A stretch of 64,000 nucleotides of DNA from Chondrosia reniformis (lineage: Eukaryota > Porifera > Demospongiae > Chondrillida > Chondrillidae): contig OX359197.1 in the NCBI GenBank assembly GCA_947172415.1, forward strand, positions 2,170,001-2,234,000. The letters run 5' to 3'. The notes below the pieces were generated by a model that saw only the letters and a list, made by a program, of their open reading frames with translations, had not been told where the DNA came from and searched no databases. Positions 6,829 to 29,026 of this stretch are shown here, piece by piece (within the stretch, counting starts at the first letter, position 1; every line of letters starts with the position of its first letter). A program made the translations under genes and the position numbers.

Positions 6829-6964
6829 GTATATCCTTATATGGTAATGTGAATCTTATATACCTATTAGCCCCTTTACTATCCATTTAATTGTCACTGC
6901 TATATATTTAAATATATAGGCAGCCTTTAAAATCTATAATATATAGTACAGCATTATGTATATA

Positions 6965-6983
6965 GTAGTAATACTAATACTAC

Positions 6984-7033
<50 letters not shown>

Positions 7034-7690
7034 AATACACATAATATTATACATAATTAAATAATTATTATAATAATAATATAAGTAAAATGATGATATC
7101 TTCTACATTTCTCTCATCTCCTACATCTTCCCTATCTCCTGCATCTTCCTCATCTTCCTCATCTCCTGCATCTTCCCCATCTCCTGCATCTTCCTCATCT
7201 CCTGCATCTTCCCCATCTCCTGCATCTTCCTCATCTCCTGCATCTCCTGCATCTTCCCCATCTCCTGCATCTTCCCCATCTCCTGCATCTTCCTCATCTC
7301 CTGCATCTCCTGCATCTTCCTCATCTTCCCCATCTCCTGCATCTTCCCCATCTCCTGCATCTTCCTCATCTCCTGCATCTCCTGCATCTTCCTCATCTCC
7401 TGCATCTCCTGCATCTTCCCCATCTCCTGCATCTTCCTCATCTTCCCCATCTCCTGCATCTTCCTCATCTCCTGCATCTCCCTCATCTCCTGCATCTCCC
7501 TCATCTCCTGCATCTTCCCCATCTCCTGCATCTCTGACATCTTCCTCATCTCCTGCATCTCCGGCATCTTCCTCATCTCCTGCATCTCCGGCATCTTCCT
7601 CATCTCCTACGTACATCTCCCTCATCTCCTACGTATATCTCCCTCATCTCCCACGTACATCTCCCTCATCTCCTATACATCTTCTCTATC
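6965..7690 (+). repeat. Left long inverted repeat with minisatellite
   Basis: The AT-rich tip (6965-7085) includes a perfect AAT microsatellite at 6985-7030. It is followed by about 590 bp of interleaved CATCTTCC and CATCTCCTG units in 15-18-bp higher-order periods. The repeat is open in several frames on both strands (Ser/Pro/Ala-rich, or EDAGD on the other strand). I do not call these genes: they are products of period-3-compatible units, and the right-hand copy gives the same artefacts. Confidence 0.8.
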
Positions 7691-8012
7691 TTCTGCATCT
7701 CCCTCCTTTCCTCAAATTCTATCTTCTCCCTCATTTTTCTCCTTACCTCTTTTCTATCAACTCCTGCATTTGTTTTATGCATAGTGGCTGTCTTCTACTC
7801 TACACTTAGATCTTATTATACTTTCTTATATATATATATATACATTCTTACATATACCTATATGCATCAATATAATATATATTTTATATCTTCTTATCAT
7901 ATTATAAATGTAATTTACATGCTTGTAATATAACAAGATTTGAATATAACAATTCATTAGTATAATATTCATACTACATGATGATTATAGCAGCTATACA
8001 GTTAATAATAAG

Positions 8013-11000
8013 TTAGTCAGTTTCATTTCTAGATCTCTTTGGATCTGGTAATTCCTCCAAATCAGGATCAGTTGCAGTATCAGATTCTGCATTGTGTGAT
8101 AACAAAGTATATATATAAGATACAAATACTTACATGATATATGATACAATATTAAACATTATGTCTATACCATAATCAGGAGGCCAATTGACTATATATA
8201 TGTATACTATTATACGTACTACAAATTATAAAATGTATATATTTAATTTTCAAGGAATCTACAATATATATTCTTCCGCATTACCTAGCTGAGTTGCAGG
8301 AGTCTCAGCTGGGAAGTCCTCATGAGTCACTGGCCCAGGAATAACATTGCTAGCTATAGATATAAAGCAAATGTATAATAATTGAAATTATTATGGTATA
8401 TACATATATATACGTATATATACATGCATGTACCTTCAAGTTGGCTACTTGGACCAGATGCAGTGGCACTTGGCCTAAATGGCACATCTGAATCTTTCAA
8501 ACCTATATATAATATAAAAACCTAATTCATTACACTTTGGCTATAAATATTATATTTAAAACAAAAAAGTTACTCATATAGGTACTCACATTCAGCTAGG
8601 TGTTTGGCAGTTGCCGAGGAAAAAGACTCATATTTAACCAATACAATGCACCTCGTACTCACAGAAAAGCCACTGGACTTGTGTAGCTGCATAAACACAC
8701 ATAAACACATGTATATTATATAATCATGTAACATATGAACAAGCACGTAAATGTATTATGATTACACATGAGATGCATTGAATTCTGATTTACTTTCTTG
8801 AAAGCCTCATCAGCAGATCCACATGGTGTGTCTGCTTTCAGGAAAAATCTGGAATTATTTCCAATGCTGCCTATTTCCTTGTATTTTTTGATAACCTCCT
8901 TGGCATCAAATAGTTGAGTGGCCAATTCAGGCGGAGCTGTTGTGGCTATAGCTATCGCTTTTTGCTTGTCAAAATGCGTTCCACCCCTTATCCACTGCAA
9001 GAACTGAATTTTCCAAAAGTATACAATAACAGAATCAGTTTCATAATAAGATTAACTTTAGGTATAGACACGTATTGACATATATATGCAGCTTTCAGCC
9101 AGCATGTCTAATGTTTGCATATATATATGCAAATATTAGACATGCTAGGTGATATTTAATACATAACCCATCTGCATGTATATACATGAATTGGAAACTC
9201 ACCATGTATGGATTATTGTTGTTGTTTTTTTCCATGTGTTGTAATAGAGCTAAACCAAGCTTTTCAATATATTCCATTGCTCTCTCCTGAGTAATTCTTT
9301 CATCTGGCATTTCGATCTGCTGTGCTTCCAAATCTGAACTTTTCATTGATTGAAGTTGAACCATAGTGGGGATGAGGGTGGATTCAATGTATGATAACAC
9401 TTGACTCCATGCATCCTCTCTGTCTACCATGATTAACAGCTGTGCATGTATTATATCACAGAAAATGTATATTGAAATGCATAAGAATCATTTTACAGAA
9501 TATTTATCAAGTGTATATAGTGATGTGGCCACATTCTTAAACTTGAAGGCTTCATACATGATACAATTAACACTGAGTTTGTAAAATGACTATGTGTAAT
9601 AACTGGTATGCAATGAAACTTGACTGACCTCCTTCAAAAACCACAGAGCAGTGGCATATCCAGGCAATATTCTTAGGGATACTTCTATCCTGCGATTAAT
9701 GCGAGTCAAGTGTTCATCTATACCATTTTGTATGAGAGGTATAAGTTCCTGCTCAACTGCTTGCATTCCTTCCTCCTTATATTTCTTGCCCAAAGCTATA
9801 ATCCCTCCAATGGCAGAGGATGCTTCTTCAAAGGCTTTGATGGTCTTGGAATAGCCTCTCACACTGATTAGCCTTGAGGTGATTTTGTTGAACTTGATAA
9901 ATACACATCTGGATGCATACCTGTAGAATACACCTTATACTACTAAAATCATCAAATTATGTACGTACTCAAAACTCATATAAATAATAGAAATAAAATT
10001 ATAAAATATACATCTATGCTAATGATTAATGCTTAACATGCTCATCTGCTTTATCACTGTGCACAGATGTAGGCATACCTTTCATTCCCTCCAATGCTGA
10101 AATTTGCTGCCAAAAGAATGGTGGAACGTGGCGTCTTGCTCCCATGCCTCAATGTACCACTTGCGGCCTGATTGTATAAATCAATGGTGAGCTGCTCCAC
10201 CAGAGCCTGGGAAGTTGGATCATCAATTCCAAGGGGACAGTTGTGCTTTGTGCATTCAGCTAATATGTGCTCCCTTGTACATTTAGAAAAGAAACGGTTT
10301 TTGTGAACCCCCAGGATGGCCAATGCTGATTTGAGAGCTGTGGTCTTATAGCTTCCAGAGGGTCCAAACCCCATGACGACTGGGCAATAACCATTCAGGT
10401 CACTTAAGAGCTGATAATGAAGTGACATGGCTGCTCCTCCTAAGAACATTAATGCAGGAGGGAAGTTTTCCCCCATTAATGCCTCCATGTTCTCTAGTAG
10501 GCAACGCATTCCCAGTCGACCAAGTTGGTCTGTTATTTGGCATGCAATGTCTGTTGGGGCTACAGAGCTACCTGCATATATATATATATATACATATCAT
10601 CCATGCTTATATATGTATGTATATATAATTAGTTTAGTATATTATTACATATATTAGTAATTAGTATATATAATTAGTCAGATTGAAATATACACTTTCA
10701 TTCAGTTAATTAACAAATCTAAATTTAAAGAGAAGTATGTATATACCTCTAAATAGATGTCCTATCCAAATATAGTTTGAGGTTGACTGATCCAACTTTT
10801 TTCCATCCTCATCAAAAATGCAATCTTTTCCTAAGACCCATGACCCATCCTCTTGTAATCCTACTGTTTGCACAGCAAATTGCGTCTTCATTGGGCCATG
10901 AATTCTTTTTCGGTTCTGAAAGTAACAAGCCAATTCTTTATCTGGAAATCCGCAGGTCAGGGTACCTATTCTACACGATTGATTGATTTCATGCAGAAAG

Positions 11001-11637
11001 TCTTTGGTCCTGATTGTGGATTCACTTGTTACATAGCATAATCTACATGTAAAAAAGATACCATGAAGGAATACAGACACTATGGTACACTATACCTATG
11101 AGAGACACTATGGTACACTATACCTATGAGAGACACTATGGTACACTATACCTATGAGAGACACTATGGCACACTATACCTATAAGAGACACTATAGTAC
11201 ACTAGAATACCTATATATGAGAGACACTGTACCTTTCATAATTTTCCCCTCTTAGTCCTCCTTCATATCTTTCTGGAGCTACTGAGATTACAAAACCATT
11301 CTCACTAGGGTTACTACAAATTACCCTGCTAACTAATTGGAAAGAAAAATCACTGAAAGAGCGATATTTCTTCTTGATGATTAGCCCAAAAGTATTCTTT
11401 GTTCCACTGTCATGAAAGTGTCCTATACGAATGTCAAAATAAGAAAGAATACTTCCAAGAAACACATGAAGGGAAGTTTTGAAACAAAGCTGAATTATAT
11501 AATGTACCTGTATCTACAATTGGATCCAGTTCATCTTCTTGTTGACCCTCAACTGCAGAAATATTGTGTTCAGCTCTATCCATTTCAGTTATGTTGTACA
11601 AAGAACCACTTTCACCACTTTCACCAGAGGTATCCAT
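8013..11637 (-). CDS. AAA-type P-loop ATPase of the large transposon, 718 aa
   Basis: Eleven exons join without a frame break: 11637-11508, 11422-11233, 11042-10747, 10571-10079, 9920-9629, 9439-9203, 9003-8794, 8686-8590, 8502-8434, 8353-8285 and 8086-8013. The start is MDTSGESGESGS and the stop follows KRSRNETD. Exon 4 holds the P-loop GFGPSGSYKTTALKSA, in which the usual GK of GxxxxGK(S/T) is YK, a Walker B-like LGIDD and a sensor-like STILLAANF. This layout resembles DUF927/SF3-type helicase ATPases, but I cannot name a family. The C-terminal third is helical and charged. The gene points towards the left repeat and lies back to back with the transposase gene. Intron 2 contains a 28-bp tandem repeat. 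It might remodel DNA or target sites for the transposase; that role is inference. Confidence 0.8.
11075..11232. repeat. 28-bp tandem repeat in ATPase intron 2
   Basis: Five to six copies of a 28-bp unit containing GAGAGACACTATGGTACACT, the last ones degenerate. It fills most of the intron between exons 2 and 3 of the ATPase gene. Confidence 0.85.
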
Positions 11638-12270
11638 TTCTAGGTTCTAGGCTTTCTGAGGAACTTGAAAGTATTTTGAATAAACTTCTGCAAAACTAAC
11701 ACTATATATAGCTATTAATTTTTATTCATCTACATATAAACACTGGGTGTACCTCAATTATCACCTTGAGGTGAAAGCACATGACTCTCTAATAATGCAT
11801 GCCCATGCTAAAGAAGATCATCCCTTTTGTGAATGGCTATGATAGGTCGACACAATCATATATTATGTATGTATATTATCTTGGCTATATATTTGGACAG
11901 TTGCACCAATATTATATTCACATTAATTGTATATAATAATAATAATATAATTTATCAGAGTGACACATGTAAATTAAACAGCACTAGGCCAAGCTGGGGC
12001 CCATGAGTCACCAAAAAAGAAAAAACTAATACAGATTTCATGACAAATTAAATTGCATAATGCAAGTGATTAAACATTCTTCAATTCTAAATATACATTA
12101 ATTTATATAAGCATTAATTGATTATCTTCATGTCAAAACAGCTCCTCTCACCAGAGGAGGAATACTATAGAAGAAAAAGAGGAATATATCAAACTCATAT
12201 GGTTGTATATGTACACAATGTTTTGCACATTAATGCATATGGGTTCTTGTTCCAAAAAGTATATATATAT
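11638..12270. other. Intergenic, nothing recognised
   Basis: Upstream flank of the ATPase gene inside the large transposon. AT-rich, no exon seen. It probably holds the ATPase promoter; no clear TATA box could be chosen among many AT runs. Confidence 0.45.
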
Positions 12271-12443
12271 ATACATTAACTTTGTATGGTAGATTTTAAT
12301 GTGCTGTAACTCCATCAAATAGAAACATATGGAGCTAATACTTGATGTCAGCATTCCCAGACATGTATGAATCATTACCAAAGAGTTTTAGAAGTTTCCA
12401 TTTTTGTTCATATTTGCCCTATCTCTCACCATACATTAACTTT
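12271..12443. repeat. 169-bp tandem unit 1 (left of CACTA insertion)
   Basis: The first unit of a 169-bp repeat that begins with TTTGTATAGCAGATTTTAAT-like sequence and ends CACCATACATTAAC. Further units follow at 22337-22505 and 22506-22660. The CACTA element sits exactly between units 1 and 2, so the array was once continuous. Confidence 0.85.
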
Positions 12444-12620
12444 CACTGCAAGAAAAAGGGCAATTTGCTATAGTTTGCAAGTTTTTCAAACTACTGATTT
12501 ACAGAACGTTTGCTAACATTTACACACAAGCTGGTTTGCATAAGGTTTGCAGAGCGTTTGTGTACTGTGGTTTTGTCACCAATTAATTCAGAAAGTCCTA
12601 TATAAACTATACACAGAGGT
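12444..12620. promoter_or_regulatory. Left terminal and subterminal repeat region of CACTA element
   Basis: After the 19-bp terminal repeat come at least five GTTTGC-type words (AGTTTGCAAG, CGTTTGCTAA, GGTTTGCATA, GGTTTGCAGA, GCGTTTGTG). In CACTA elements such subterminal motifs bind the TNPA-type protein. Binding here is inferred. Confidence 0.65.
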
Positions 12621-13620
12621 GAAGCTTAGTGGAAGTGATAATGATATTCATTAACCAATTAAACGATTAAAATGGATTCTCAGGCTAGAGCAACGTTGCT
12701 AATGATTCCAGCACCAGCGCCTTTCGGTGGAACAGATATAGGCTAAATATATCCAAAAGGTAAGATAAATAACTATACATCACTGTTAAAAGGCAAAAGT
12801 TGCCGTATTTTTATCATTTAGCAGCCTTAATTCCGTTTCACTTATGCTTAGTTAGTAATTTCAATATTTACCCCCTTTGAGTTGAAAGGCATAGAAAGGT
12901 TCAAACTCACCATAAATAGTTATCTTAGTTGTTGCTTGCCATTACAGTGAATGTTAAACGCAAAAGTTTTACCAAACTATTGTATGTTCGTATGTATGTT
13001 TATAGATGTGATTGATCTTATATCTTTCATGGGTATTCTAGATAGTTTAAAATCGCACATGATAATATCTTAGAAGGAATCGCCTGACTCCTCAGTGGTC
13101 TTTGCTAAGGTAAGAAGCAGATTAAGTACCTTAAGTATACGTAGTACTTACATGGAACGGAATGTCCTAGGCCTGTATACAATTAAGATTTTAGCTACTC
13201 TGATAGAGAGAACAGCAGAAGTATAGTCATTAGAAAATATAAACAGTCGATTATCCAGTGTTTATAATTAACTTATGTACAAACTGTACAATCATCAACA
13301 TATAAAAAAGTGCGTATATTCAATTAATGTTAGTCCTATATCCTGATAGCTATACGTAATTAATTATTAGTGTACAGGATTATGGGTGTATTGACTTGTT
13401 TATTTTTATGTTCTTACCTATACAACATACATGTTTATAACTTAGAGAATTAACTATTTTAATTATACGTACCAACATGGGGAATTCGAAAGGATGTCGT
13501 TATGCTTACTTCTTATTGTGTATAAATGTAGCATAAAAGTCACTGGATTGAAAGGTTTATGTATAATAAGGATGATAATTAACAACTGTACACAGTTATA
13601 TAGTGTTAAGAGAAATTTAC
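12621..13620. other. CACTA internal sequence, nothing recognised
   Basis: About 1 kb of AT-rich sequence between the left subterminal repeats and the 254-residue ORF. Only short shadow frames were seen (such as 13494-13721). It may hold untranslated or missed small exons. Confidence 0.4.
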
Positions 13621-13623
13621 AAA

Positions 13624-14388
13624 CTATTCAGTTCTATTGTCTTTACTTTGAGCACCTAAGAGGACCATCCTCCCTGCCCTGCATCCTCCCTCCAAAATCC
13701 TATTCCTGTAAAACTCCCTAATTGCTAACTTAGATGTATTATATTGTTTTCTTTTTGTGTCTAATTCTATTCCTAATTCCTCTACCTTATCCCTATATTG
13801 CCTAATTTCATGTACTGCCCTATCTTCTAGATTTTTCAATTCACTTACATGCCTATTAACTATGTACTGCTCTGGTAAGCTAAGCCTATCCTTAATTACA
13901 TTTTCTGCAGCTAATGCATGCTTATGAAACTCGGTATCTATTTTACGAGACTTTGGCTGTATGTCAGTGTGTCCTATCTCTTCTCTACCTTTCCCTACTG
14001 TATCGTATACTTTACATTTCTTAATCCAATCTGAAGTACGCTGAAGATTTGTTTCTCTAAAGTAGGCATCCCATTTCTCATGGTCATAGGGTAGGTCATC
14101 TGGGTCCTCTTCAGGTCTCACTAATGTCAATTTCGGTCTTTCTCCGTTGTCTTCCAATTCATGGTTCTCGGTAAAACCTTGTTGCTGAGCATCCTGTGGT
14201 TTCTTCTTTTCAGAATTTGGGGGTGTAAGCAGATCAGCCGGCACAAGCATGCTAGGGTTAGGATCATATTCAAAAACTCTTCTGGTTCTTTCAAGATTCA
14301 GCTTCCTTCTAACACGTTGTTTTCTCCTTTGTCTTATTTTCTTCTTCCAGAGGTCTTCTGATGTTTTTGGATAATGGTAATTTGCCAT
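13624..14388 (-). CDS. Unknown 254-aa protein inside CACTA element
   Basis: Single open frame, MANYHYPK to QSKDNRTE. I chose this Met over one 26 codons upstream because the extra residues look random and ATTTTACAG lies just before it, a possible acceptor of an unseen 5' exon. The N-terminus is very basic (KKKIRQRRKQRVRRKLNLER), the middle acidic (PEEDPDDLPYDHEKWD), and the last 110 residues are charged and probably coiled coil. I do not recognise a family. It could be a third transposon protein (a DNA-binding accessory factor) or a captured host gene. The open frame argues for recent selection. Confidence 0.5.
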   Translation of the reverse strand: MANYHYPKTSEDLWKKKIRQRRKQRVRRKLNLERTRRVFEYDPNPSMLVPADLLTPPNSEKKKPQDAQQQGFTENHELEDNGERPKLTLVRPEEDPDDLPYDHEKWDAYFRETNLQRTSDWIKKCKVYDTVGKGREEIGHTDIQPKSRKIDTEFHKHALAAENVIKDRLSLPEQYIVNRHVSELKNLEDRAVHEIRQYRDKVEELGIELDTKRKQYNTSKLAIREFYRNRILEGGCRAGRMVLLGAQSKDNRTE

Positions 14389-14592
14389 GCTGTAAAATTT
14401 TGTATGCATGGAGTAATTAGTAATACCAGTACCAGTACACATGCATTCATGACACATGGACACCAATGTATGCAGATAGGGTTGTTGTAGGACTAGTACT
14501 ATAGGCTATACAACTCCAAACATGTAAGCTTGCCAGTCCAATGGTTTATTTTCAATTAAGCTATATATTATAAGTTTGTTTTTAGGTGATTA

Positions 14593-15560
14593 GATTGGTA
14601 TAGCCCGAAGCAGGCTCCCCATGTTCTAAGCTTGATTATTAGATTGGTACAGCCCGAAGCAGGCTCCCCATGTTCTAAGTTTGATTATTAGATTGGTACA
14701 GCCCGAAGCAGGCTCCCCATGTTCTAAGTTTGATTATTAGATTGGTACAGCCCGAAGCAGGCTCCCCATGTTCTAAGTTTGATTATTAGATTGGTACAGC
14801 CCGAAACAGGCTCCCCATGTTCTAAGCTTGATTATTAGATTGGTACAGCCCGAAGCAGGCTCCCCATGTTCTAAGTTTGATTATTAGATTGGTACAGCCC
14901 GAAGCAGGCTCCCCATGTTCTAAGTTTGATTATTAGATTGGTACAGCCCGAAGCAGGCTCCCCATGTTCTAAGTTTGATTATTAGATTGGTACAGCCCGA
15001 AGCAGGCTCCCCATGTTCTAAGTTTGATTATTAGATTGGTACAGCCCGAAGCAGGCTCCCCATGTTCTAAGTTTGATTATTAGATTGGTACAGCCCGAAG
15101 CAGGCTCCCCATGTTCTAAGATTGATTATTAGATTGGTACAGCCCGAAGCAGGCTCCCCATGTTCTAAGATTGATTATTAGATTGGTACAGCCCGAAGCA
15201 GGCTCCCCATGTTCTAAGATTGATTATTAGATTGGTACAGCCTGAAGCAGGCTCCCCATGTTCTAAGTTTGATTATTAGATTGGTACAGCCCGAAGCAGG
15301 CTCCCCATGTTCTAAGATTGATTATTAGATTGGTACAGCCCGAAGCAGGCTCCCCATGTTCTAAGATTGATTATTAGATTGGTACAGCCCGAAGCAGGCT
15401 CCCCATGTTCTAAGATTGATTATTAGATTGGTACAGCCCGAAGCAGGCTCCCCATGTTCTAAGCTTGATCATTAGATTGGTACAGCCTGAAGCCAGGCTC
15501 CCCATGGCCATGTTCTAAGATTGATTATTAGATTGGTACAGCCCGAAGCAGGCTCTCCAC
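14593..15560. repeat. 49-bp satellite array, about 20 copies, inside CACTA element
   Basis: About 20 head-to-tail copies of a 49-bp unit containing CAGCCCGAAGCAGGCTCC and CATGTTCTAAG, with very few differences (GTTT, GCTT or GATT variants after CTAA). AGCC/GGCT can pair in each unit to make a small hairpin. It lies between the 254-aa ORF and the transposase 3' end. High copy identity implies recent expansion. Not a CRISPR: there are no unique spacers. Confidence 0.95.
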
Positions 15561-16468
15561 ATTCTTATAGTCATTGTTTTATTATTTAATGGCAAACAGG
15601 TACAATGTACATAATTGACAGGTCCAACCTGAAACATTATTATAATTGCCAACTAATGTTTCATGTGTGCATTTATATATCTTTAAGAGTCAAACTGTTA
15701 ACTTACTTCTTGATATACAGGTAAACATCAAGTTAATACAGGAACAGAACAACAGAACTATAACTTTAACCTTTCCTCTATATATAACTCATTAAAAATG
15801 ATATCCCTCCAAAATGTCATGCCCTTGTCATGTGATTTACTATTTATAACATTTATCCTTGACAAAAATGTGTATTTTTAGAGCTTGAGATTACATATAT
15901 ACTATATACTTTTATGGAACATCTAAAATAGGAAACCAGTTCTGAGCATGCTCAAAGGCACATGGTATAGAGCTTCTTGCATAACTGTGTGCGCTTTCAA
16001 ATAACATTATAATATTAATAAAATTATTATGGCTATTACGTATCATGTACACCATATAATATATAGAGGCATTTAATTAGTATATACATCTAGATTTAAA
16101 TTATATTATTACGTATAATAAAGCTGTGAAATCTGCAATAAAATAATAAAATCCCATGGAAGGTCATACTAAACATATGTACACCTATATAAATTATTTT
16201 ATGTATGCAAATTGCTGTACATTTTAAAAATCAATTGCAACAAAACAGAAATATAATAGAACCACAGACAGCTATACATAGCTGTTTCGAGCTTCTTGGC
16301 TCTCATCAGTGTGGTGCACTATATATAAAATGTGAGCTCAGCACAAGTCAGCCATTTTCCTATACAAGCAATTTCATTACATGCATAAGGAAATTAATAA
16401 ATGGCAAATCATTATAAGAGATTTGCATCACAGCTCAAAAAGTTTATGATCATATATATTGAATAAAA
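15561..16468. other. CACTA internal sequence, nothing recognised
   Basis: AT-rich 3' flank of the transposase gene. A small plus frame (16205-16417) has no recognisable content. Confidence 0.4.
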
Positions 16469-19400
16469 TCACAGAGGGATTTGACTAACAATAAGTACTC
16501 TGTCAGAACCACGTCTAGTTCCAAAATGAACATCTGCTTCTAGCCAAATGACACGTGAGCAAATGTTCTGAATAGGAATAAAAACGGAATGGATTTCCAA
16601 AGAAGTGGTCCAAATCTCACAAGGTGTACCTAGCCAATATCTGAATTCATCTGGAATAAAAAAATTTACATTGGCAAACCAAACAGAGTGTACATTTGTC
16701 AATCCACTTGCAACTGTAACCTGAGTGGAAACCTTAATGAAATAATTTATCCTACAAAGGCTGGTAGCCTGTGTTGCAGTATCTTTATGTGCTAGCACAC
16801 GACTGCAGGCATGAAACCTGCCTTCAAAGGAACCAATAGTAGAGCCATTTATCCTAACACAGTTACATTTTGAACATAGTATACCGATGTCAATTTGGCC
16901 TTCAAAAAGTCCACAGGAAATGACAATTAAAGCTTCTTTGGTAACTCTATCTAAAGATGACTCAAAAATAGGTGGTAAAGGAATCACTGATCTACTTCCT
17001 ATCTTATCACTGGAAATAGGTTTAAAGCAGACAGAAAGAGAGCCTTTCAAATTGGTGTAACCCAACAGAGGACCAAAGTCATCTTGGTATTCTTGGGGCA
17101 AACTTGAGGTAACAGTAAAATCAAGCATGCAAAATTTTCTCATAAGTTGGATCTCCACACTTCTGTTATTGGTTGGATATCCACCTAATAAACCATTCAT
17201 CCTCTCAAAAGCAAATAACCAAAAACTATACACTGGGCCAAAGTCCCTTATACACTCCTGTAGATGAAGGTGTAAATGCATATTGGGAGTCAAATACTTA
17301 GGGGAGTACAAAGCCTCAGTTTGTATACAAAAATCAGTTAACAATTTATGGGCCTCAGCAATTTCATGTGGTTTAATTATTCTAGAGCAAAGTATACTGC
17401 ATGCCTTTACAAACGTTTGCCAACATTTGTAATCATTAATTGGTAGAATAGGCCTTAAGCAAGGCAGGGAAAACAATAAGACCCAATTTTTCCACTGATC
17501 GGCACTGAAGGAAGAAAACCCAGAGGACAGCTTAAATGGTATTCTTCCAACATCAGATGGACCAATAAAATTATCTACCTTTTCCTGGATGGATTGGAAA
17601 TCATTAGGCTTAAGTTTTCCAGTCTCTTTCCAAATTGTCATCATATGCTTTGCAGTTCCTAATAGTAAATTGTGCATGGGGTCGATGATAACCATTCTGG
17701 TAGGGTCAAAGTAAGGCAATTCTAAAAGCACTGAATACTTGATCCCATACTCTTGCTGTATCTTCCTTTGCGCCTGTTGAGAAGTAGCTAAATGCCATTT
17801 GTCTGCAAAAGAATGAACAAGTGACAGCTCCCTTTTTGGCCAGTTTTCAGTGTCAAACCCACCATAATTGGGCTTGTTAATGTCCGCTGCATATGTAAAA
17901 GCTTTTAAACATTTGAGGCATCCTCTATGGGCATTAAAATTCACAAAACCTGACACTTTCCTAGCCGCAGGGGTATCACATGCAACACACAACAGAACTG
18001 CTCTAGCAAGTATTTTCCCACAGTCAGTACTTATTTCTACTCCATTGTTCCAAAATGCCTTCAATTCAGCAACTAATGGTTCTAATATGAAGTTTAGGTT
18101 AGCAGGTTCTTTTGGACCGGGTATAAGACCAAGCAACAAAATGTTTTCTGGCTTAAATCTCTCGACCCTTGGTAAATTTTGTATAGCCAAATAAATTGCA
18201 CCCAAAGAATATGGGGTATGATCAAAGGGCTGAAAAAAATCTAAATTTAACATAAATGCAAAAGTGTGCACATTACTTAATAAAGGCAAAGACTTATATT
18301 CCTGAAATTCCTTCCATATACTTCCATGGTAAACATCAGTGAGGTCAGGAGTTGGACCAACATTACGCCAATGTTGACACTTTTCCAGCATGCCTTTACG
18401 CATCAATATAGCTTCCAAACCTGTTTTAATACTTTTATAACAATAAATCATCTTTGGAAAATAAAGAGTTTTACCTGCAGAAGTTCTATAGGATTTAAAT
18501 AGAGGTTGATTGCAAGGCCTACGTTTGGATGGGTGTGGATGGTGTGGAAACTTGGCATAGCTACAGTATGCCTGCCTCTTTGAAGAATTTAGTCTTTCAC
18601 CTAGAAGGTCTTCAGACTTATAAATAGAATTACACTTTTGGCAATAAATGTACTTTTGAAAGGTGTCTTTTATATTAGTGGCTTTCTTAACCTGATAAAC
18701 AGTTCTTGGCAATTTGCCTACAAATTCAGACATAGGTCCATTAGGAAACCGTTTCAGCATAGCCTCGAAAAATTTCACAATAAACAATAGAAAGATGGAT
18801 AGAGTAGCATTTGATAATTTAGCTACAGACTGGATAGCTAACAGGAAGTGGGAATATAGAATAACCAACTTGTTGTGCCCATTGTCAGGACACGGAGATG
18901 TTTGCTCTTCATAACAATCATTGATAATGTCTTCCATCTCTTCCGGGTCAACTAGAAGATCAAGGGATTCACCTTCTTCTTCATTACCACTCATGTCACT
19001 ATCAGAGTCAACAGCCTATGTTAAATATCAGAAAATGCCATTTCTCTAACTCATATAATTGACCTGCAGTCATGCACTTCAGTGCACTCACTTCTAAATG
19101 CTCATTTCCTCCAACTAAATTCTCCAAAGAAGTATCGATTGGTATTCCTTGTTCTTGGACTTCCCTTGGTATGGAGTCCTGCCAACACATATAAAGGCAC
19201 TATTGGACAACTAAATCCATGATGCATTCAATGCATACAGTACAGCAGTGCCTTCTACATACTGAAAGTATATGCATGTATACCATTGCTTGATCTTCAT
19301 TGTGGGCTTCTTCAGATGCATGCTCTCCAACTGAATCTGATTGACATTCCTCAACTTAATTAAGAGAAGGCATAAAGGGGTACTTTTAAGGTTTATTTAA

Positions 19401-19903
19401 TCTTAATTGTTTAACAAAGTCTATATAAAATCAACATGCATGCAGCCATACCAGTTAATATAGCTCTACAGGATTTATATACATTTTAAAGGGAATATAG
19501 GCTATATCAATAATGCATGACTGAATTAATAATTGCATGCATATTATATAACACAAATACTTTGAGTTTCTTTCTTGACCATGGTATACAGCTTCTCATA
19601 CATACAATATAGTAAAATTAGTTTCAACTATGCTCTCATAATCTTTGGAATGGTACATCCTTTGACTTTTGAGCGTTTAAATGTACCATCCCAAAGATAA
19701 GTTTGACACAGCTATAAGGAATCCTTATTCTATTATGTACTCATAATATCTACATCCATTAATTATTGTTATGCATATATACCAATACTATTCTGCCAGC
19801 AATTCAGTTGCTTGTTGTAAAAAAGCTTCTTATGTCTCCAATATGCAGTTTTGGATAAGTTGGTATTACAATGAGGGCATACGTATTTGCTTTCACTTTC
19901 CAT
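16469..19903 (-). CDS. CACTA/EnSpm transposase (TNP2/Transposase_21 type), 941 aa
   Basis: Four exons, 19903-19783, 19354-19284, 19178-19092 and 19015-16469, total 2826 nt with all phases matching. The N-terminus has a small zinc-binding module, CPHCNTNLSKTAYWRHK (C2H-like), then an acidic stretch. The large exon has the family's CDTPAARKVSGF with a following HRGCLKC, then IDPMHNLLLGTAKHMM, and further on a DUF4218-like MHLHLHLQECIRDFGPVY and FERMNGLLG. This enzyme cuts at CACTA ends and integrates with 3-bp duplications, which agrees with the borders found here. It is intact, with no stops. It lies head to head with the second gene, 305 bp apart, so they probably share a bidirectional promoter. 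Confidence 0.94.
19600..19710. other. Imperfect inverted repeat in transposase intron 1
   Basis: ATCTTTGGAATGGTACAT and ATGTACCATCCCAAAGAT form arms around a short loop. Possible intronic hairpin. No known function. Confidence 0.5.
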
Positions 19904-20208
19904 GACAAAATGAAGAGAAATGAGAGCTGATTGAGCTTGCAGGGCTTATATTCTTTTCTGCTGGTAAAACACGTGCATGCTGCTAAATATCATGAGATTA
20001 AAGTCACCTGATTTACAAAGCTAGATTTGATTGGTCCTTTATATATGGACAAGGAAGAAAGTAAGCTGATTGGCTATTTAAATATGGTCATAAAACCTGC
20101 TTCCTGTATAGGAGGTCCAAAAATTCCAATGAATTTCATTAATTTTGGAGGGATTTATTCTGGCTCGGGAAGTTTGCAATTGTGCATTAGATTTGAATCT
20201 TAAAAGAA
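19904..20208. promoter_or_regulatory. Probable bidirectional promoter of CACTA genes
   Basis: The 305-bp gap between the divergent start codons of the transposase and the second gene. It is AT-rich with candidate TATATAT-like words, but no single core element can be picked. Shared promoter use is inferred from the arrangement. Confidence 0.5.
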
Positions 20209-21780
20209 ATGACTAACTTTAACAGAGATCCAAGATTTGTCTTCACAGATCCTGCTAGAGGTTTGCTCTACTATAGGTGTAATCATGTGTTTCATGTATT
20301 GCAGATTTAGCTAATACATGCAAACATATACATACCTAATTGCAGTTTTAGAGGAACTCACAGATTCAGAAGACGATGCAGGAAGCCTTAGCCAAGGACA
20401 GAGTAGCAACTATAACTTGGAAGAACCTGCTCCATACTTTGGAGGAATGACAACAACAGGTATATAAACTTCATTAAAACTATATACATTGTCCAGTCCA
20501 CAATTAAAAATTGTTTGTTTAAACAGTTTTAAGACAACTGAATTCAACTGTCACAGCCATTAAGTCAAAACTTTGTAGCTTAGAGATGGCAAATGAGACT
20601 CTAACCAATCGGTTTGAAAGATTAGAGCAGGAACAACAATTGCCAACACCCCCTTCTTCTTCTTCAAGTTCTCCTGTGACAAATCAGTCAAGTTCTATTT
20701 TACTGACATCTCCAAAGATCACTAGAAGAATCACAGGAAGAATTTCTGTTAGTGTCATGCATGAATTTAGTTTTTAAGGATATACATTCATTGTACATCA
20801 ATTTTGGATCATATACAAATTAAAATTATTTTCTAAATGCACATGTACATTGTAAATTCATCAACAGCAAGCTATACAGAGAGTGCATTCAAACTTGCCA
20901 GATGAGAAAAAATTTGATTTAAACAAAAGGTAAAATCTTACATATCTGTACTATAGCTGCACTGCATATAGTTCAAATTTTTATTTTATACCTCCTTTTA
21001 AGCTTACTGAGTCCAGAAAACCAACAAACAAGAAAAAACATTTTAGATGAGGTTCATTTACATATGCCTGAAGAAAGAAATGAACTTTTAATATGTAAGT
21101 AAATGCAACTTATCCCATGCAAACTGCACAGTATAGCTCTATATGACTATTTAGTGGGAACTAAGCGCTTATTTGAAAATCTTAAAAGAAAGAGAAGATT
21201 TGCTATTCTAACTGATGAACAGAACACCTCAAGAAAGTTAACATCAAGAAAAAGACAGAGAAGAATTAGGGTGAACTATTTATAGACAGCTTAACTCAGT
21301 CAGTCTGACCTTATGTTATCAAATGTTTCATAGAAATATGAGAACAGAGCATCACAAGCCAAATCCCATCAAGGAGAAATGTTTAGGGACATCGGAGTTG
21401 ACCATATGACAGAAGAGTCAGAAACTGAAGACCCTGTAACAAGAAAAACAAAGATAGTATTACACAAACTTCCATGGCGATCAAATGGTAAAATATGACC
21501 ATGCATGCATGTGTAAACTATATACACATAAATGTCATATACAATTCCACAGAAGCAACTGAACTATTGCATACTCTAGACAGAAAATATGAAGAGACCC
21601 TAACCAATAAACCTTACAGAACTTCTAAGCTTGATAGGATTGATGGAGCACCATCAGCTAGAATGCCACCGAGGGGAACTGCTTCTTGGATCATTAGTAG
21701 CACCTGGCAAGGTATAAATTGATTTTATTTGATTAGTAAAACTGTATGGAACCTTAAATTACTGTTCTGCAGAAACATGA
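20209..21780 (+). CDS. Second CACTA protein (TNPA-like candidate), 323 aa
   Basis: Nine exons join in frame: 20209-20260, 20352-20459, 20527-20747, 20868-20929, 21003-21094, 21155-21270, 21334-21487, 21553-21711 and 21773-21780. The start is MTNFNRDPRFVFTDPA; the last exon adds only ET and stop. An acidic N-terminus is followed by a predicted coiled coil (TVTAIKSKLCSLEMANETL), a Ser/Pro linker, a basic stretch (SRKRQRRIR), and a C-terminus with GAPSARMPPRGTASW. CACTA elements usually encode such a DNA-binding partner that coats subterminal repeats. I do not recognise the sequence itself, so the TNPA role is inferred from position and composition. Confidence 0.72.
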
Positions 21781-22336
21781 ATGGCACTAAGCTGTGATCC
21801 TACTGCACAAATGACTGCAAGCACAGGAGAGTGATCTAACTTTAAACTTTAACAACATAAGTTTCACCTTTATATACATTACAAATACATCCCAAATATA
21901 TACACACTTACTTGAATTTGTATTCACATTTTTGTTAATTCTCCAACTACTTTATCGATGTAGCCATTTTAATTTGACTTTGCGCAATACATATAAATGA
22001 TTAAAGGATAAGGTCATGATCATGCAAAAAAGGTCATTCATTTATTGAATTAGTACTAATGATATTCATAACTTTCACACCTCACCTGCCGAAACAGGCC
22101 TACTTAAAATGATATTCATAGAATCAATATTATTCATAATCTAAAATAACAAACTATAAAAACTTTGCTTCTGACAATGTATACATTGCCAACTTCAGCA
22201 AACTCTAAGCAAATTCGTTCGTTTGCTCAAGTTTGCATTGTATGTAAACTTAAGGTTTGCTGAAGTGTAAACTAATGGCTTTGCTAGCAAAACAACTAAG
22301 TTTGCACAACTGTAAACTGCCCTTATTCTTGCAGTG
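21781..22336. promoter_or_regulatory. Right subterminal and terminal repeat region of CACTA element
   Basis: 22190-22320 carries GCAAACTC, GCAAATTCG, CGTTTGCTC, AGTTTGCATT, GGTTTGCTGA and AGTTTGCACA, mirroring the left end. It then ends with the 19-bp terminal repeat at 22318-22336. 21781-22189 shows nothing else. Confidence 0.65.
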
Positions 22337-22660
22337 TTTGTATAGCAGATTTTAATGTACATTAAGGGTCGTAACTCCATCAAACTGAAACATATGGAGC
22401 TAATACTTGATGTCAGCATTCACAGACATGCAAGAATCATTTACAAAGAGTTTTAGAAGTTTCAATTTTTGTTCATATTTGCCCTATCTCTCACCATACA
22501 TTAACTTTGTATAGCAGATTTTAATGTACATTAAGGGTCGTAACTCTATCAAACTGAAACATATGGAGCTAATACTTGATGTCAGCATTCACAGACATGC
22601 ATGAATCATTTACAAAGAGTTTTAGAAGTAACTGTTTCAATTTTTGTTCATATTTGTTTT
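22337..22660. repeat. 169-bp tandem units 2 and 3, with empty CACTA site
   Basis: Unit 2 spans 22337-22505 and unit 3 spans 22506-22660. They are almost identical to each other and to unit 1 at 12271-12443. The junction at 22500-22518 preserves the sequence as it was before the CACTA insertion at the equivalent junction. Confidence 0.9.
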
Positions 22661-23252
22661 AATTTATCAACATGCACAAACAATAAATATGTATAGCACA
22701 AGAACTCTATCACACAGGTGGATGAATAAATAATTGGGGATGTATAAAGATTCCATTCTTTCAGGGCAAAGTGCCATTTGCCAAGTGCAAGTTATGCAAA
22801 TTAACAGGAGGAAGTGGTAATCCATTTCACATGAGCAAAGCCCTAGTGATAAACATGTCACATTAACAGAGTATTGTTAGAGCTATATAACCAAATGCTG
22901 TTAATATGATAGACCTTTATAGGTGGGTGTACCTCATCAGAGCCTCATCTTCAATTTAGCCAGAAGACAAATCTTATTCCAAAAGTATACAAGCTCAATT
23001 AAACTTCATTCAACACTATGTACATAACTCTATACCATGTATTATGAAGTATACCTATAGGTATTTGAACTTTTATGATATTTACATATTTGGAGCATGC
23101 ATGAATGGCTTGTCTATATTAGAGTAATAAATAGTTTATAGGTCTCAAAGCCAATCTGCTAGAAACATGAGTATGCACTTGAAAGCCAGAGGAACTACAA
23201 CAATCACAGCAGAGTCATGACTTATCTAAATTCTATATGTGTGTGTATATGT
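22661..23252. other. Intergenic, nothing recognised
   Basis: AT-rich stretch inside the large transposon. The small minus frame at 22667-22861 has no recognisable content. Confidence 0.4.
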
Positions 23253-23485
23253 CACAGAATCAAATTTCAGGTTTCATATGGCATGAAACCTATTTAAAAC
23301 TTCTTGAACAGCCAGGTTTCAAAGGGTGCTCAAATATGTATGTACTAATAGATTATTTCATGGGTTTCAAATTTTAACAGTCCCTTTTCTGAGTTTTATA
23401 CATACTTTCATACCTTTTGAAACCTGGCTGTTCAAAAAGTTCAAATAGGTTTCATGCCTTATGAAACCTGACATTTGATCCTGTG
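23253..23485. mobile_element. CACAG-ended MITE, copy 2 (TSD TGT)
   Basis: Ends CACAGAATCAAAT / ATTTGATCCTGTG, flanked on each side by TGT, with GGTTTCA-rich arms matching the copy at 3286-3517. It inserted into the large transposon upstream of its transposase. Confidence 0.82.
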
Positions 23486-23969
23486 TGTGTAGTACTTGGA
23501 TAAACAAATCAATGATGGGTAGCCTACAAACAAGTCCATTTCTATGCTACATTTACTTACAGTCAGATTTATGATTAAACTTTCCCAACCATTAATTGGC
23601 CCTTCATTCATGGCTCTCCTACCCAACATGCATATTCTACATACCAATTAGGACTAGCTTCTTGTACTCTTCTACTGCCAAATGATCTTATTATATAGAA
23701 TCATCCTTTAGCATCTTTCTCAGTGGAGAATCTTTATAAATCAATGTGTATAACCTATAAAGGGAAGTAAAACATAAATAAAAATGAGAACAATGCGATA
23801 ATTCATTCATTCACTCTATTCAAAGAATGATTTTACATTTAGCAAGGGTACAGTGTGGTTAATTTTCACCCTTAGCTTATAACTCCTTCAAGTGTGAGGT
23901 GTACATATAAGGCTGCCAAATGTATATATACAGCTCCTACCTACTGAATAAGCACCAAAGACCCAGGAA
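23486..23969. other. 5' flank of the DDE transposase gene
   Basis: No exon recognised. CCCAG lies just before the chosen ATG at 23970, so an upstream untranslated exon is possible. It probably contains the promoter. Confidence 0.4.
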
Positions 23970-26900
23970 ATGCTAGCTAAGTGGTGTGACAGACTCCAGG
24001 AGGAATGCAAGCTTTTTGAAAGAAAAGTATCAATACCACGAGAAGTAGAACCTTGTTATGCTATGGAACCTTCTGTGGCAGAATGTCCTGAGCTTTCATT
24101 AATGCCTCCTTTCATTTTGTGGTCACCATTGGAGCAGTTTGGGGAGTCATATGGCATAACTTTTACCTGCCCAAAGTGTGATGTAATTCCCTCTGAATTA
24201 AAGGCAGTTGGATGGCAATGTGGTCTAAAAGGCTCCTCTACCAACCCAAGAGTGATCCACTCAGTCGATAGTGCAGTTCTTGTGGTAGGAAGAACCTATA
24301 GGTGTTCAAGTTCACACACTGTCCTTGCATACCACCCAGATTTGATGCAGAAACTTCCTAAAAGTCTGGTACCATTCCAACTTTGGCACCGCACAGGATT
24401 CACTGTAAAATTAATAAACTGGATACAGTCTTTGGTGTTGGCTGGTGTGAGCCTAAGTGCAATAACTTCAACCTTGAACTCGAGACGACATGAATGCTAT
24501 TACCGTAGGAGGGAAACATATTACAGCATAATTCAATTGAGACAGATACCCTCACTTCTGTTTCCCTCACTAAATGAATATGAAAAAGCCTTTGGAGTTG
24601 GTAGCTCCCTGTCAAGGCATTCCACTGGTGCCATATTCCTGACTGAGTTCTGGCAAAGGAGATCTCTTTACAACAGTGTTATGGCACAAACATCAGTGAA
24701 TTCAGATGATGCCTGGTTAAGCTGTGACCACACCTTTGCCTCAGTCAGTGAGTTTGCCATGTTTGTACTGTGTATTGCACCTTATTAAGTTAATTGATAT
24801 ATGTATACATAACATACTGAAGTATAAATTCACTTTTTCACAATTCAAGATAAAATATAAGGTTAAAATTTTCAATGAATATACCTGAACTATCTATCTG
24901 TATAGAAAACATAGGAGTTTCCAGGACATCTGATGGAAAGTGGGTAACCCAGTTTAATGGTCTCTTCTGTGTGCTTAATCATTTGGGCCAGGTAGTCACC
25001 TGGAAACTTACTACTGATTTAACATTTTCACATGTGAAGGACACACTAACCAACCTGAAAGGTAGACTTGAACGACAAGGAAAGAACCTCATGGAGTTCT
25101 ACATTGACAACTGCTGCTCTTGGAGAAGGAAGCTTCAAGAGGTTTTTGGCAGTGGATTGAAAGTTAAGCTGGACATCTTTCATGCTGTAAAGAGAGTGAG
25201 TGACAAAATACCTAAGAAGCATTCCCTCAGAGTACCCTGCATAGAGGATCTTAGGACAGTGTTCAGAGATCCTACAGACAAAGGGCCTACACGTAAAAAA
25301 GCTACACCAGAGCCAGGTTAGTAAACACACATTTCATATATAATTTGTATACACTGTATATACATAAATGCATACAAACATGTACGTATATAGGTGTCTT
25401 ACTAGATAACCTCAGAGATTTTGAATTGTACTGGTCAACCAGAGAATCCATGAGTGGTGATGGAGTACTAAATGCAGCAGCTCTCAAAGAGATTTCTAAG
25501 CTAAGGAAGCACATAACAAAAGGCTGCTTGTCAGGTAATCAATGCATACAAAATTAAACATTTATATACATATATGAATCAATTTTTAACTCCTGTCCCA
25601 TGATGGCTTTCTTTAGGAATACAACCAGGAAGAGGGACCAATCGCAATGAATCACTACACAAGAATATAAATGCTATAATGAAAACCTCTAGGTAAGTTT
25701 TTTAATTATATATTTTGTAGCATATTTACATGTGTGACATAAGCTCAAATTATTGAATACATATATATATGCTGTATTATACTTTATATGTATATATACT
25801 TTTCATGCACAGGTATGGAGTGGAGTTGGCATATGCTTTACTGACCACATGTTTCTTTGTTCACAATGTGAAACGGACTGGAGGAGACCCTACTTTCCTA
25901 TTATTTGAAAACAGGGACACTTCTACATCGTGCCCAGAAACCTTTGGTCTCTCTTTCCAAGCTAATACTTGTCAATTGCAACAGGAAAAGGATCCAATGC
26001 AGAGACAACCAGTTGACTTTCAAAAAAACTCATTTGAAGACATACTGGCATGCTTTGAGGTTAGTTTCAAGAAACTAAACAAATCAAAGGTTCAGAGCAT
26101 TACTAGAATACATACTAGAATATAAAGTATTCTTAGACTAACATATATCACTCACTTTATGTTAGAATACTTTTATGCATGTAACTTGATCAGCATGCAT
26201 ATAAGTTTTGTCTGTTATTTTATAGGCCCCTTCAAACTTAGCAATATCACAATCAGACATGGCTGAAGAGGACAGCAACCCTGCCATTCCATCAGAAGTA
26301 AGCTTGTACACATATATACATTCTTGCTATATACGTATGTGGTTAAATTAATAACACAGCTTTTTACAGCAAGAATGTTAACAATTTTTAGTAAGTATAT
26401 TATACATATACAATAATTATGACATTTGACATGAATGTATATAGTATATATATGCTGGTGTAGCTCTTTGCAGAATCCCCCAATTCATATACATATAATA
26501 CAGTACAAGTTACAAAATACCAATTTAATCTAATATTTGTATAGGTACCGGACATTGACGAAGCCAATGTAATGCAGATTGACGACTCACCTTTTGAAGG
26601 ATTGGATATCACTGTAGTGAAGGGAATCCTTTTAAAGGCCATTGCTTCTTTTAAGTTGCATCAACAACTGCATGAGCAAAGTCCAACTGCCCAGATAGCT
26701 CTAAGAAACTTTCCCTTCTTACAAAAGAATTCGGGCAACCTCTTTATGTTCCTTGTTGATTCACCAGTGACAGAAGAAGAGATCAGGTTGCATGAACAGG
26801 CTTTGGATAACACTGTTGAATCTTGGAACTGTACCATAGTAAGGGCAAAAAGAGATGGTGATAGCCTTTTCTATGCCACAGCGCAGAGCATACTGGAGTG

Positions 26901-27912
26901 GGCAAGGAAGGACTGTCATTATTATCAGCATATATTATTGGAGCTGTCAAAGTATTCTTTGACTGATGCTACTGCTGTTGACAACCTTGAGCCAGCCGAC
27001 TTAATCCCTGCATTGAAACAATTTGTAGCCACTGAATGGACTGTGTCTGCCCATGAGTACACCAGTTTCCTTACAGAAAGTCAGTTGAAGAAGGAAGCAG
27101 AACGTTTGCAGAGGGATGGCATATTTGATGAAGGATTAGGAGATTTAGTACTTACTGGTATATCCAATGCCTTGAGAGTTCCCATCATTCTCTTCACATC
27201 TAAGCTAAGACTCCCCATCACTGTTTTCATGCCCACCTATACTAACATAGCTTCTATCCATTGTGTCTACATGGGATTCCTGCATCTTGGCACAGGGCGT
27301 TATGAAGTAGTGACACCACAGGGCACTGAAACAGAATCTACATGTGGAACAGGTTCGGACACTGAAGCAGCTACCAGCAGCACTTCCTTGAAAGGGTGCT
27401 CCTGTGGCAGAAAGGCAAAGTCCAAAAACCCAGCATGCTATTCTGATGAATACAGCAGCTACACATCCAAGTGTCCATGTTTCACAAGGCAAATACAATG
27501 CAACAAGCTATGTATATGCAGAGGATGCAGAAATTCTTATGGCAAAGAAGAGGCCCCTGAAGTGATGAAAAAAAGAAAACGAGCATCACATCCACTGCAG
27601 AAACATCCATTGAAAGGAGTAGGGGGAATGCATTTTATGGAAGGCTTGGCAGAATCAATAAACCTTGGCAGTGTTACCGATTTTGAGTTCATACTATTAG
27701 CAGAAATTGTTCACGAACTCTTTCAAGAAGATCAAAAACGTTTCAGTTTGTCAGATGAGGATGTCCTCTTTAATTTTTATCAGTCATGTATCCTTACCTC
27801 TTCTGCCTGTAACCTTAGTCTCCCAATCCATGAGCGATCTAAAGAGGAAGTTGTCAAGGCAGCCAGGAGTGCTCAAAGAAGAGGAGAACTAACTAAAACA
27901 CTCATAGAGTAG
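23970..27912 (+). CDS. DDE-type transposase with OTU-like and CXC domains, 1030 aa
   Basis: Seven exons join in frame: 23970-24747, 24906-25316, 25394-25534, 25617-25692, 25813-26059, 26226-26297 and 26545-27912. Near residue 70 FTCPKCD suggests a zinc-binding N-terminus. Candidate RNase H-fold acids are D in SCDHTFASVKNIG, D in FYIDNCC (followed by DIFHAVKRV) and E in GRGTNRNESLHKNIN. The last exon has an OTU-type protease fold signature, RAKRDGDSLFYATAQ, but the catalytic Cys of DGxC is Ser and the late HY pair reads RY (GTGRYEVV). It ends with a CXC/CRC-type cysteine cluster (CSCGRKAK ... CPCFTRQIQC ... CICRGC). I cannot place it in a named superfamily. It lies beside the right inverted repeat, pointing outwards. 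Confidence 0.82.
26827..27320 (+). other. OTU-like domain with altered catalytic residues
   Basis: Sub-region of the transposase's last exon. DGDSLF occupies the place of the OTU catalytic DG(N/D)CLF, with Ser for Cys, and GRYEVV the place of the catalytic HY motif. The fold call rests on these motifs and spacing of about 140 residues. If right, the domain would be an inactive ubiquitin-binding module, or a serine variant. Confidence 0.6.
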
Positions 27913-28254
27913 CACATTTTACATTTTAAATTACAGTTAACTCTACATATCTTTTAATTCTATATTTATTTGCAATTATACACCTATACTATATAATTAT
28001 TTGACTGCTTATATATAAATGGTAATTTAAAGTTTAATTCATATTGCGTATATGTATATATAATCTATTAATGGTATTAAATTCAGTGTGTAAGGCTACA
28101 TTTAGGATGACTTGATTCATTTTTCATTTATACAATGCACATAATACAGTTTATACATGTATATATTCATGTCATATATGATGCATATGTTTCCATTATT
28201 AATTTCTTGCAGTGGATATACAGATACGTGAAAAGTTGAAAAGGAAAGGAAAAA
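27913..28254. other. Transposase 3' flank
   Basis: AT-rich, with AATTTAAAGTTTAATTC-like runs and no clear AATAAA in the first 100 bp. It ends where the right minisatellite begins. Confidence 0.4.
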
Positions 28255-28890
28255 GGAGATGCTAGGAGATGCAGGAGATACAGAAGACACAGGAGATGTA
28301 GGAGATGAGGAAGATGCAGGAGATGCAGGAGATGAGGAAGATGCAGGAGATGCAGGAGATGAGGAAGATGCAGGAGATGGGGAAGATGCAGGAGATGGGG
28401 AAGATGCAGGAGATGGGGAAGATGCAGGAGATGGGGAAGATGCAGGAGATGGGGAAGATGCAGGAGATGGGGAAGATGCAGGAGATGGGGAAGATGCAGG
28501 AGATGGGGAAGATGCAGGAGACGGGGACGATGAGGAAGATGCAGGAGATGGGGAAGATGGGGAAGATGCAGGAGATGGGGAAGATGCAGGAGATGGGGAA
28601 GATGGGGAAGATACAGGAGATGGGGAAGATGCAGGAGATGGGGAAGATGCAGGGGATGGGGAAGATGCAGGAGATGGGAAAGATGCAGGAGATGGGGAAG
28701 ATGTAGGAGATGAGAGAGATGAGAGAGATGTAGGAAATATCTTCATTTTATTTATATTATTATTATTATAATTAATATTTAATTATGTATAATATTATGT
28801 ATATATAATTGTATATAATTAACTATTATTACTTACTGTATTAGTATTAGTATTAGTATTATTATTATTATTATTATGTAGTATTACTAT
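28255..28890 (-). repeat. Right long inverted repeat with minisatellite
   Basis: GAGATGCAGGAGATGGGGAA-type units (28260-28735), then the AT-rich tip with an ATT microsatellite at 28840-28875 and TAGTATTACT at the outer end. Read in reverse complement it matches 6965-7690 block by block. Its open frames (EDAGDG on plus, Ser/Pro on minus) are repeat artefacts. Confidence 0.8.
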
Positions 28891-29026
28891 TTTTATAATA
28901 TTGCGCAATTTGGATATTCCTTATATGTGCCATCAACCCTTTAGCCTTTCTAAAAGTATAGAAGCCGTACTAGTTGCAGAAGCGCTCTACTCTCGCTAGT
29001 GGCCAATAAGTGAGAAATCTCTGTGA

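Follow-up and report, generated by a model that had tools for sequence, protein, structure and literature searches.

A two-gene DNA transposon of the sponge Chondrosia reniformis that pairs a DDE transposase with a putative helicase-type ATPase

A two-gene element inside array-bearing inverted repeats

The DNA considered here, hereafter the window, is a stretch of 64,000 nucleotides of the genome of the demosponge Chondrosia reniformis (contig C9, positions 2170001-2234000; the analysed genome comprises 117.4 Mb in 15 contigs). It contains a DNA transposon, spanning positions 6952-28938 of the window, in which two divergent genes, for an ATPase and for a DDE transposase, lie inside long inverted repeats that carry arrays of short units. 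The inverted-repeat arms (7062-7569 and 28267-28774) are 83% complementary across 508 nt, and in both of them the blocks run in the same order, from an AT-rich end through the array to the gene. Each gene was modelled as one open frame with a lone stop at its end, the exon joins being placed from GT/AG signals, so that alternative acceptors are possible. These observations bear out a preliminary description, drawn from the nucleotide sequence of the window, that had recognized long inverted repeats of matching block order around two back-to-back, fully open genes at 8013-11637 and 23970-27912. It had also noted a nested CACTA insertion and estimated the element at about 12 kb without it; excision of the 9.9-kb CACTA element (12444-22336) and one TTT leaves 12,091 bp. 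The bounds first proposed, 6965..28890, locate the element correctly but require revision: its right end is at 28938, and on the left the homology extends to ~6952, with the left terminus itself missing. The features are as follows.

6952..7097, plus strand: left terminal region, AT-rich/TAA part, from by-eye comparison with the left end of the C13 copy
7098..7608, plus strand: left inverted-repeat array of short CATCTCCTG/CATCTTCCY units in a 9/18/27-bp register
8013..11637, minus strand: ATPase gene, putatively helicase-type, 11 modelled exons, about 680-707 amino acids (two acceptor choices)
10079..10571, minus strand: modelled ATPase core exon, from alignments and the model
12444..22336: nested CACTA transposon with CACTGCAAG../..CTTGCAGTG ends and a 3-bp TTT target duplication
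16472..19015, minus strand: CACTA transposase (Pfam Transposase_21, E 7.2e-15)
23970..27912, plus strand: gene for a DDE transposase that has OTU-like and CXC domains, about 1026-1030 amino acids in 7 modelled exons
26545..27912, plus strand: exon with the OTU-like domain (Ser at the catalytic Cys position, DGDS) and the CXC cysteine cluster
28263..28740, minus strand: right inverted-repeat array
28741..28938, minus strand: right terminal region, with the terminal motif GGTTGATGGCACATATAAGGAATATCCAAATTG at 28906-28938 on the minus strand
28939..28946, plus strand: expected right copy of an 8-bp target duplication, CTTTAGCC

In a copy on contig C13, the inverted repeat extends outward, by eye, to 5'-GGTTGATGGCRCATATAAGGAATATCC, and GGTTGATGGCGCATATAAGG... 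stands outside the CATTATGTATATAGT that this copy has in common with the window. At the left end of the window copy the outermost ~46 bp (GGTTGATGGC...) are gone, homology with C13 ceasing by eye at ~6952, and because of this loss the window copy may no longer be able to move in cis. The terminal motif occurs once in the window, at the right end (28938), and at five sites in the genome when at most 3 mismatches are allowed over its 33 places (none for the reversed control), a looser form adding one further site. No left partner of the CTTTAGCC duplication was found for the window copy, the best candidate agreeing at 6/8 bases. A 32-mer from the array, searched with at most 2 mismatches, has all 42 of its 42 matches in 117 Mb within three copies of the window element (the window, C5 and C13; control 0). 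This search is blind to more diverged arrays, and one such array adjoins a related end at C1:6998175. With every match inside an element copy, we reject the view that the arrays are ordinary satellite DNA, which the preliminary description had named as a possible refutation of its proposal.

Recurrence of the gene pair in the genome

A second copy, C5:4544401-4562576, is collinear with the window element and, with gaps counted, 90-92% identical to it across the principal alignments; it contains both genes, with stops. The C13 copy comprises the left part of the element, is 96% identical, and is broken off within the ATPase gene. The ratio of nonsynonymous to synonymous substitution (dN/dS) between the window and these decayed copies is 0.49 for the ATPase, against both C5 and C13, and 0.72 for the transposase against C5; this suggests that constraint on the ATPase has been at least as strong as that on the transposase, in comparisons with copies that also carry stops.

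Two sister elements on contig C2, C2a (8,672 bp) and C2b (8,363 bp), align with each other in two pieces at 98.8% and 98.2% identity, and their inverted repeats of about 870-905 bp hold a different array with a 16-bp unit. They encode an OTU-CXC transposase that is 46-61% identical to that of the window in matched pieces, and in place of the window-type ATPase they carry a divergently oriented DUF3987 gene, detected by Pfam well above the cut-off (116.1 bits vs 27). Their ends read 5'-GG..CC-3' and are flanked by perfect 8-bp target duplications (GTTTTTCC; GAATTTTC). The terminal pattern of this subfamily, with at most 3 mismatches, recovers 14 ends, namely 4 of C2a/C2b, 4 in two gene-less elements and 6 single ones. 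The gene-less elements, of 203 bp (C1:6680443-6680645) and 193 bp (C2:3527143-3527335), resemble miniature inverted-repeat transposable elements and have duplications of ATAATTCT (8/8) and CAGATATC/CAGATTTC (7/8), such that the 8-bp duplication agrees at 8/8 bases in three elements and 7/8 in the fourth. A first reading of a 6-bp duplication for C2a/C2b was dropped because the two short elements with both ends show 8 bp; the ends thus lie at the GG.

When matches were collapsed by hand, the genome yielded 14 transposase loci and, counting both types, 23 ATPase loci. Of the transposase loci, nine have an ATPase gene at most 16 kb away, in divergent orientation at eight (C9, i.e. the window, C5, C2:3745, C2a, C2b, C2:7286, C1:5009 and C9:2695) and on the same strand at the ninth (C2:4321). 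Random uniform placement over 20,000 rounds gave a mean of 0.08 linked loci and a maximum of 3, a contrast that is only indicative because the 16-kb limit was chosen after seeing the data, subfamily copies are non-independent and transposons cluster. The proposal of a transposon that pairs an ATPase with a DDE transposase therefore stands, since the genes recur together elsewhere and, in C2a/C2b, do so between inverted repeats with fixed ends. At the level of sequence, we regard as established the pair itself, the confinement of the arrays to element copies and, for the sister subfamily, its ends and the length of its target duplication. That a host gene or passenger, caught a single time by the inverted repeats, accounts for the ATPase, as might be supposed from ATPase loci near which no transposase was found (C14:1860, C10 and C2:7436 among them), is very improbable: the layout recurs in several divergent lineages and with two ATPase types, and this recurrence largely refutes such an origin.

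The window-type ATPase also occurs in a second kind of transposon. In the element C1b it is found (34% identity) between kilobase-long array-bearing inverted repeats and points away from a fragment of a PHD finger; the ends read GCCATTAGAGAGAGG, with TAGTCGAAC at either side and four additional bases at the left. ATPase and PHD matches lie at most 0.9 kb apart in divergent orientation at 5/9 PHD matches, while at a C6 locus MULE-like (Mutator-like element) and PHD pieces are without an ATPase match, which counts against this pairing. The remnants carry signatures below cut-off for SWIM (0.04) and, in a remnant at another locus, for a ZSWIM RNase H-like domain (5.3e-6) and MULE (0.0021); the PHD match is above cut-off (E 1.9e-6). 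Internal deletions seem to have affected the copies on C1, as well as those on C14 and C12 that were read in part. By its sequence the C1b-type element fits Rehavkus as outlined in an excerpt of PMC6446971 (PHD finger, MULE-like, minisatellite), and the window-type ATPase is, on this evidence, common to the window element and a Rehavkus/MULE-like transposon of the same genome. Rehavkus-like elements at C1:3624539-3632138 and C1a have the window-type ATPase between kilobase-long array inverted repeats and are apparently internally deleted. A single transposase type accompanied by two types of ATPase, and a single type of ATPase accompanied by two transposase types, point to a real functional need for the association.

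As to the remaining sequence of the window, the CACTA element is absent from the C5 copy, where the interval from 12235 to 22650 of the window corresponds to ~45 bp. It holds a 49-bp tandem array (14589-15559), and its TTT target lies inside a duplicated repeat, 12306-12443 resembling 22371-22508 and 22540-22677. Possible host-gene exons flank the transposon at 6607-6830 and 28945-28995, the right end of the element abutting a possible splice acceptor (CTTTAG). The left of these exons is reminiscent of a four-jointed/FAM20-type kinase, but Pfam gave no match in it. Further to the right are a 15-bp unit, GTACCTCCTCAGAAC, repeated 44 times with 96% matches and several frames open (31765-32428), and an open frame of 576 amino acids in which a NACHT domain is strongly matched (32664-34391; E 3.4e-24), an NLR-like gene a short way to the right of the element.

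The two proteins and the possible route of transposition

The transposase has 151 relatives in the database searched, only the 7,992 candidates that shared most words having been scored; identities are 27-39% among the 120 listed, one of which is a named protein of the coral Oculina patagonica. In 34 relatives, hand-picked from these 120 and aligned, the DDE triad positions are kept in 34, 34 and 33 sequences, the OTU domain is matched in 29/34 and an MSL2-type CXC in 11/34. In the predicted model of one relative, P0001 (predicted local distance difference test score 81.6), residues 1-465 match the ISCth4 transposase and residues from about 608 to 786 match OTU domains. Pfam support among the 34 is marginal, with Transposase_mut in 1/34 (E 0.084) and DDE_Tnp_ISL3 in 3/34 (best 0.0053); the KDZ transposase domain is not among the 25 listed of 31 families matched, and its absence there excludes nothing. 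A viral fold library returned mainly OTU-like matches, a pattern search found no transposase relatives in viral contigs, and the pieces of the window transposase showed no PHD-finger match. Judged by the modelled fold of its relative, the transposase would be of the IS256/MULE type. The active-site Cys of the OTU domain is kept in 33/34 aligned relatives and is replaced by Ser in the window (26848-26883) and C5 copies; because of this replacement the domain is probably not a protease in these two copies.

With the spliced ATPase as query, no homologue emerged from 7,184 candidates, probably because exon-sized entries fall out by length, and an alignment of the core exon used as query recovered 35. 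By eye, none of the contigs with ATPase matches agrees in length with those of the 120 listed transposase matches, which gives no sign of linkage in other species, and a pattern search found no ATPase relatives in viral contigs or genome contigs. The core contains what we take to be a Walker A motif (GPSGSYKTT), a Walker B-like motif (LGIDDP) and a motif-C-like AANF, and its predicted model has an AAA+ arrangement. Among the matches listed in structural comparison of this model, the nearest solved structure is, by a modest margin, Cch, a helicase of the staphylococcal cassette chromosome SCCmec. Pfam DUF927 weakly matches 7/23 members of the family (best 0.0024), and the window query is below its curated cut-off (14.5 bits vs 22.6). 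PHROGs gave no match for the window ATPase exon or for P0136, whereas P0130 had a weak one to a primase (0.025), and Pfam had none in two C-terminal regions, one of them a suspected winged helix. From the model, the ATPase may form rings and act as a replication-type helicase akin to DUF927/Cch.

The usual view of eukaryotic inverted-repeat DNA transposons is that they move by cut-and-paste and depend on the host for copying. We give slightly better than even chances to the reading that the window element represents a two-gene eukaryotic DNA transposon with its own, putative replication-type helicase, and that it possibly moves replicatively. On this reading the element would draw in the ATPase, perhaps by way of its terminal arrays, and the ATPase would unwind DNA, so that an element intermediate is copied before reinsertion; the type of helicase, window-type or DUF3987, would be exchangeable. 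In mobile-element primases, according to an excerpt of PMC5862659, DUF927 and DUF3987 domains take the place of known helicases, and one DUF927 protein has been shown to be a helicase; here, a DUF927-resembling ATPase and a DUF3987 ATPase alternate beside the OTU-CXC transposase type. Rep of Staphylococcus aureus pathogenicity islands (SaPIs) recognizes short repeats beside its own gene (PMC7581432, in an excerpt), and an origin-like role of the arrays is therefore worth considering. Likewise, ISCth4 is described, in part of PMC7780238, as moving by copy-out/paste-in, and by analogy a copy-out route is plausible for the window-type element.

It weighs against this reading that generic AAA models fit the ATPase family better than DUF927 does. 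Against the pairing of the two genes as such, no ATPase was found within 16 kb at five of the 14 transposase loci; these are longer pieces with stops (C6:3664 and C2:4759), a fragmented locus (C4) and short fragments (C5:4812 and C8), and the scan, which covered the C6 side to C6:3666439, relied on three ATPase queries that a too-diverged ATPase would escape. Copies that exclude a gene also exist, namely the two gene-less short elements and, in a transposon of another type, the ATPase next to PHD remnants. The co-occurrence proposed as a check in the preliminary description is thus seen at nine loci and was not detected at the other five.

The better fit of generic AAA models and the AAA+ arrangement of the core would also suit an AAA+ regulator of the Tn7/Mu/IS21 type, of which there is bacterial precedent, and which would choose or mark the target and activate the transposase, with no role in replication. 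We think such a regulator unlikely. A helicase heads the structural matches, though families outside the fold lists remain candidates (TnsC, MuB and IstB-like ATPases are not among the matches listed, which excludes nothing), and the alternative DUF3987 partner matches phage helicase and primase families. Moreover, Tn7 and Mu generate 5-bp target duplications, to which the 8 bp of the sister elements do not correspond. The analogy to Tn7 drawn in the preliminary description hence gains no specific support, and we do not assign the element to a Tn7-like family.

About as improbable is an accessory helicase, acting in end processing, repair or anti-silencing, in a transposon that moves by cut-and-paste. 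Accessory helicases in DDE transposons are known, since Kolobok lineages carry RecQ helicases, one of them on the complementary strand (excerpt of PMC9587614), and MULEs are described as resembling cut-and-paste elements in part of PMC6446971. As against this, the domains reported as substitutes in the excerpt of PMC5862659, DUF3987 and DUF927 types, stand in for replication helicases and not repair helicases.

Beyond the replication-type helicase favoured above, we tentatively put forward a more specific scheme, possible but doubtful: a eukaryotic DDE class would transpose by copy-out/paste-in, its self-encoded replication helicase loading at iteron-like, origin-like terminal arrays and a free copy being inserted, with the helicase as a portable module that can be swapped between the window type and DUF3987 and between two transposase types. 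More generally, an element family with a replication-type helicase and a transposase folded like a bacterial copy-out enzyme would render replicative movement of eukaryotic DDE transposons directly testable, and would tie helicase types of prokaryotic mobile elements to eukaryotic transposons.

Comparison with known systems

The open-access literature searched yielded no description of a eukaryotic DDE transposon partnered by a DUF927-like or DUF3987 protein; the transposase family itself may already be in Repbase, which is outside that search. DDE transposons with a helicase gene are already known, as KolobokH encodes a RecQ (excerpt of PMC9587614); in contrast to the window element, its helicase is of the RecQ type and its transposase belongs to a different superfamily. 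IS3EU offers a parallel in gene layout, fungal members having two opposite genes for a transposase and an alpha-kinase, and such elements are also treated in part of PMC10853768. However, membership in IS3EU was rejected, as the 8-bp duplication and GG(Y)AGATGG / GGTTGATGG ends found here differ from the 6-bp duplications and TAYGG..CCRTA ends given in an excerpt of PMC12730594. The same excerpt lists an 8-bp duplication for Zisupton, which would fit that of the sister subfamily.

The SCCmec Cch and SaPI Rep proteins, DUF927 initiator helicases, provide the nearest fold to the ATPase core and are likewise encoded by mobile elements, but they are bacterial, the window ATPase is below the DUF927 cut-off, and array binding is here putative. 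SCCmec and SaPI elements are moved by other recombinases. Among further transposons, AcademH is another DDE type with a helicase gene, and the target of KolobokH is TTAA. Rehavkus resembles the window element in its array-bearing inverted repeats, and in this genome the window-type ATPase lies divergent from PHD/MULE remnants; its transposase and ends are different, Rehavkus being a MULE-like element with a PHD finger and a minisatellite before the 3' inverted repeat (PMC6446971, in part). The window element departs from IS256/MULE transposons (ISCth4) in its marginal sequence matches, its added OTU and CXC domains and its linked ATPase gene. With them it shares the predicted DDE fold of its relative, the DDE triad, and an A/T-rich duplication in the sister elements whose 8 bp fall within the 8-11 bp range given for IS256/MULE in the excerpt of PMC6446971, and MULEs often have long inverted repeats, as here.
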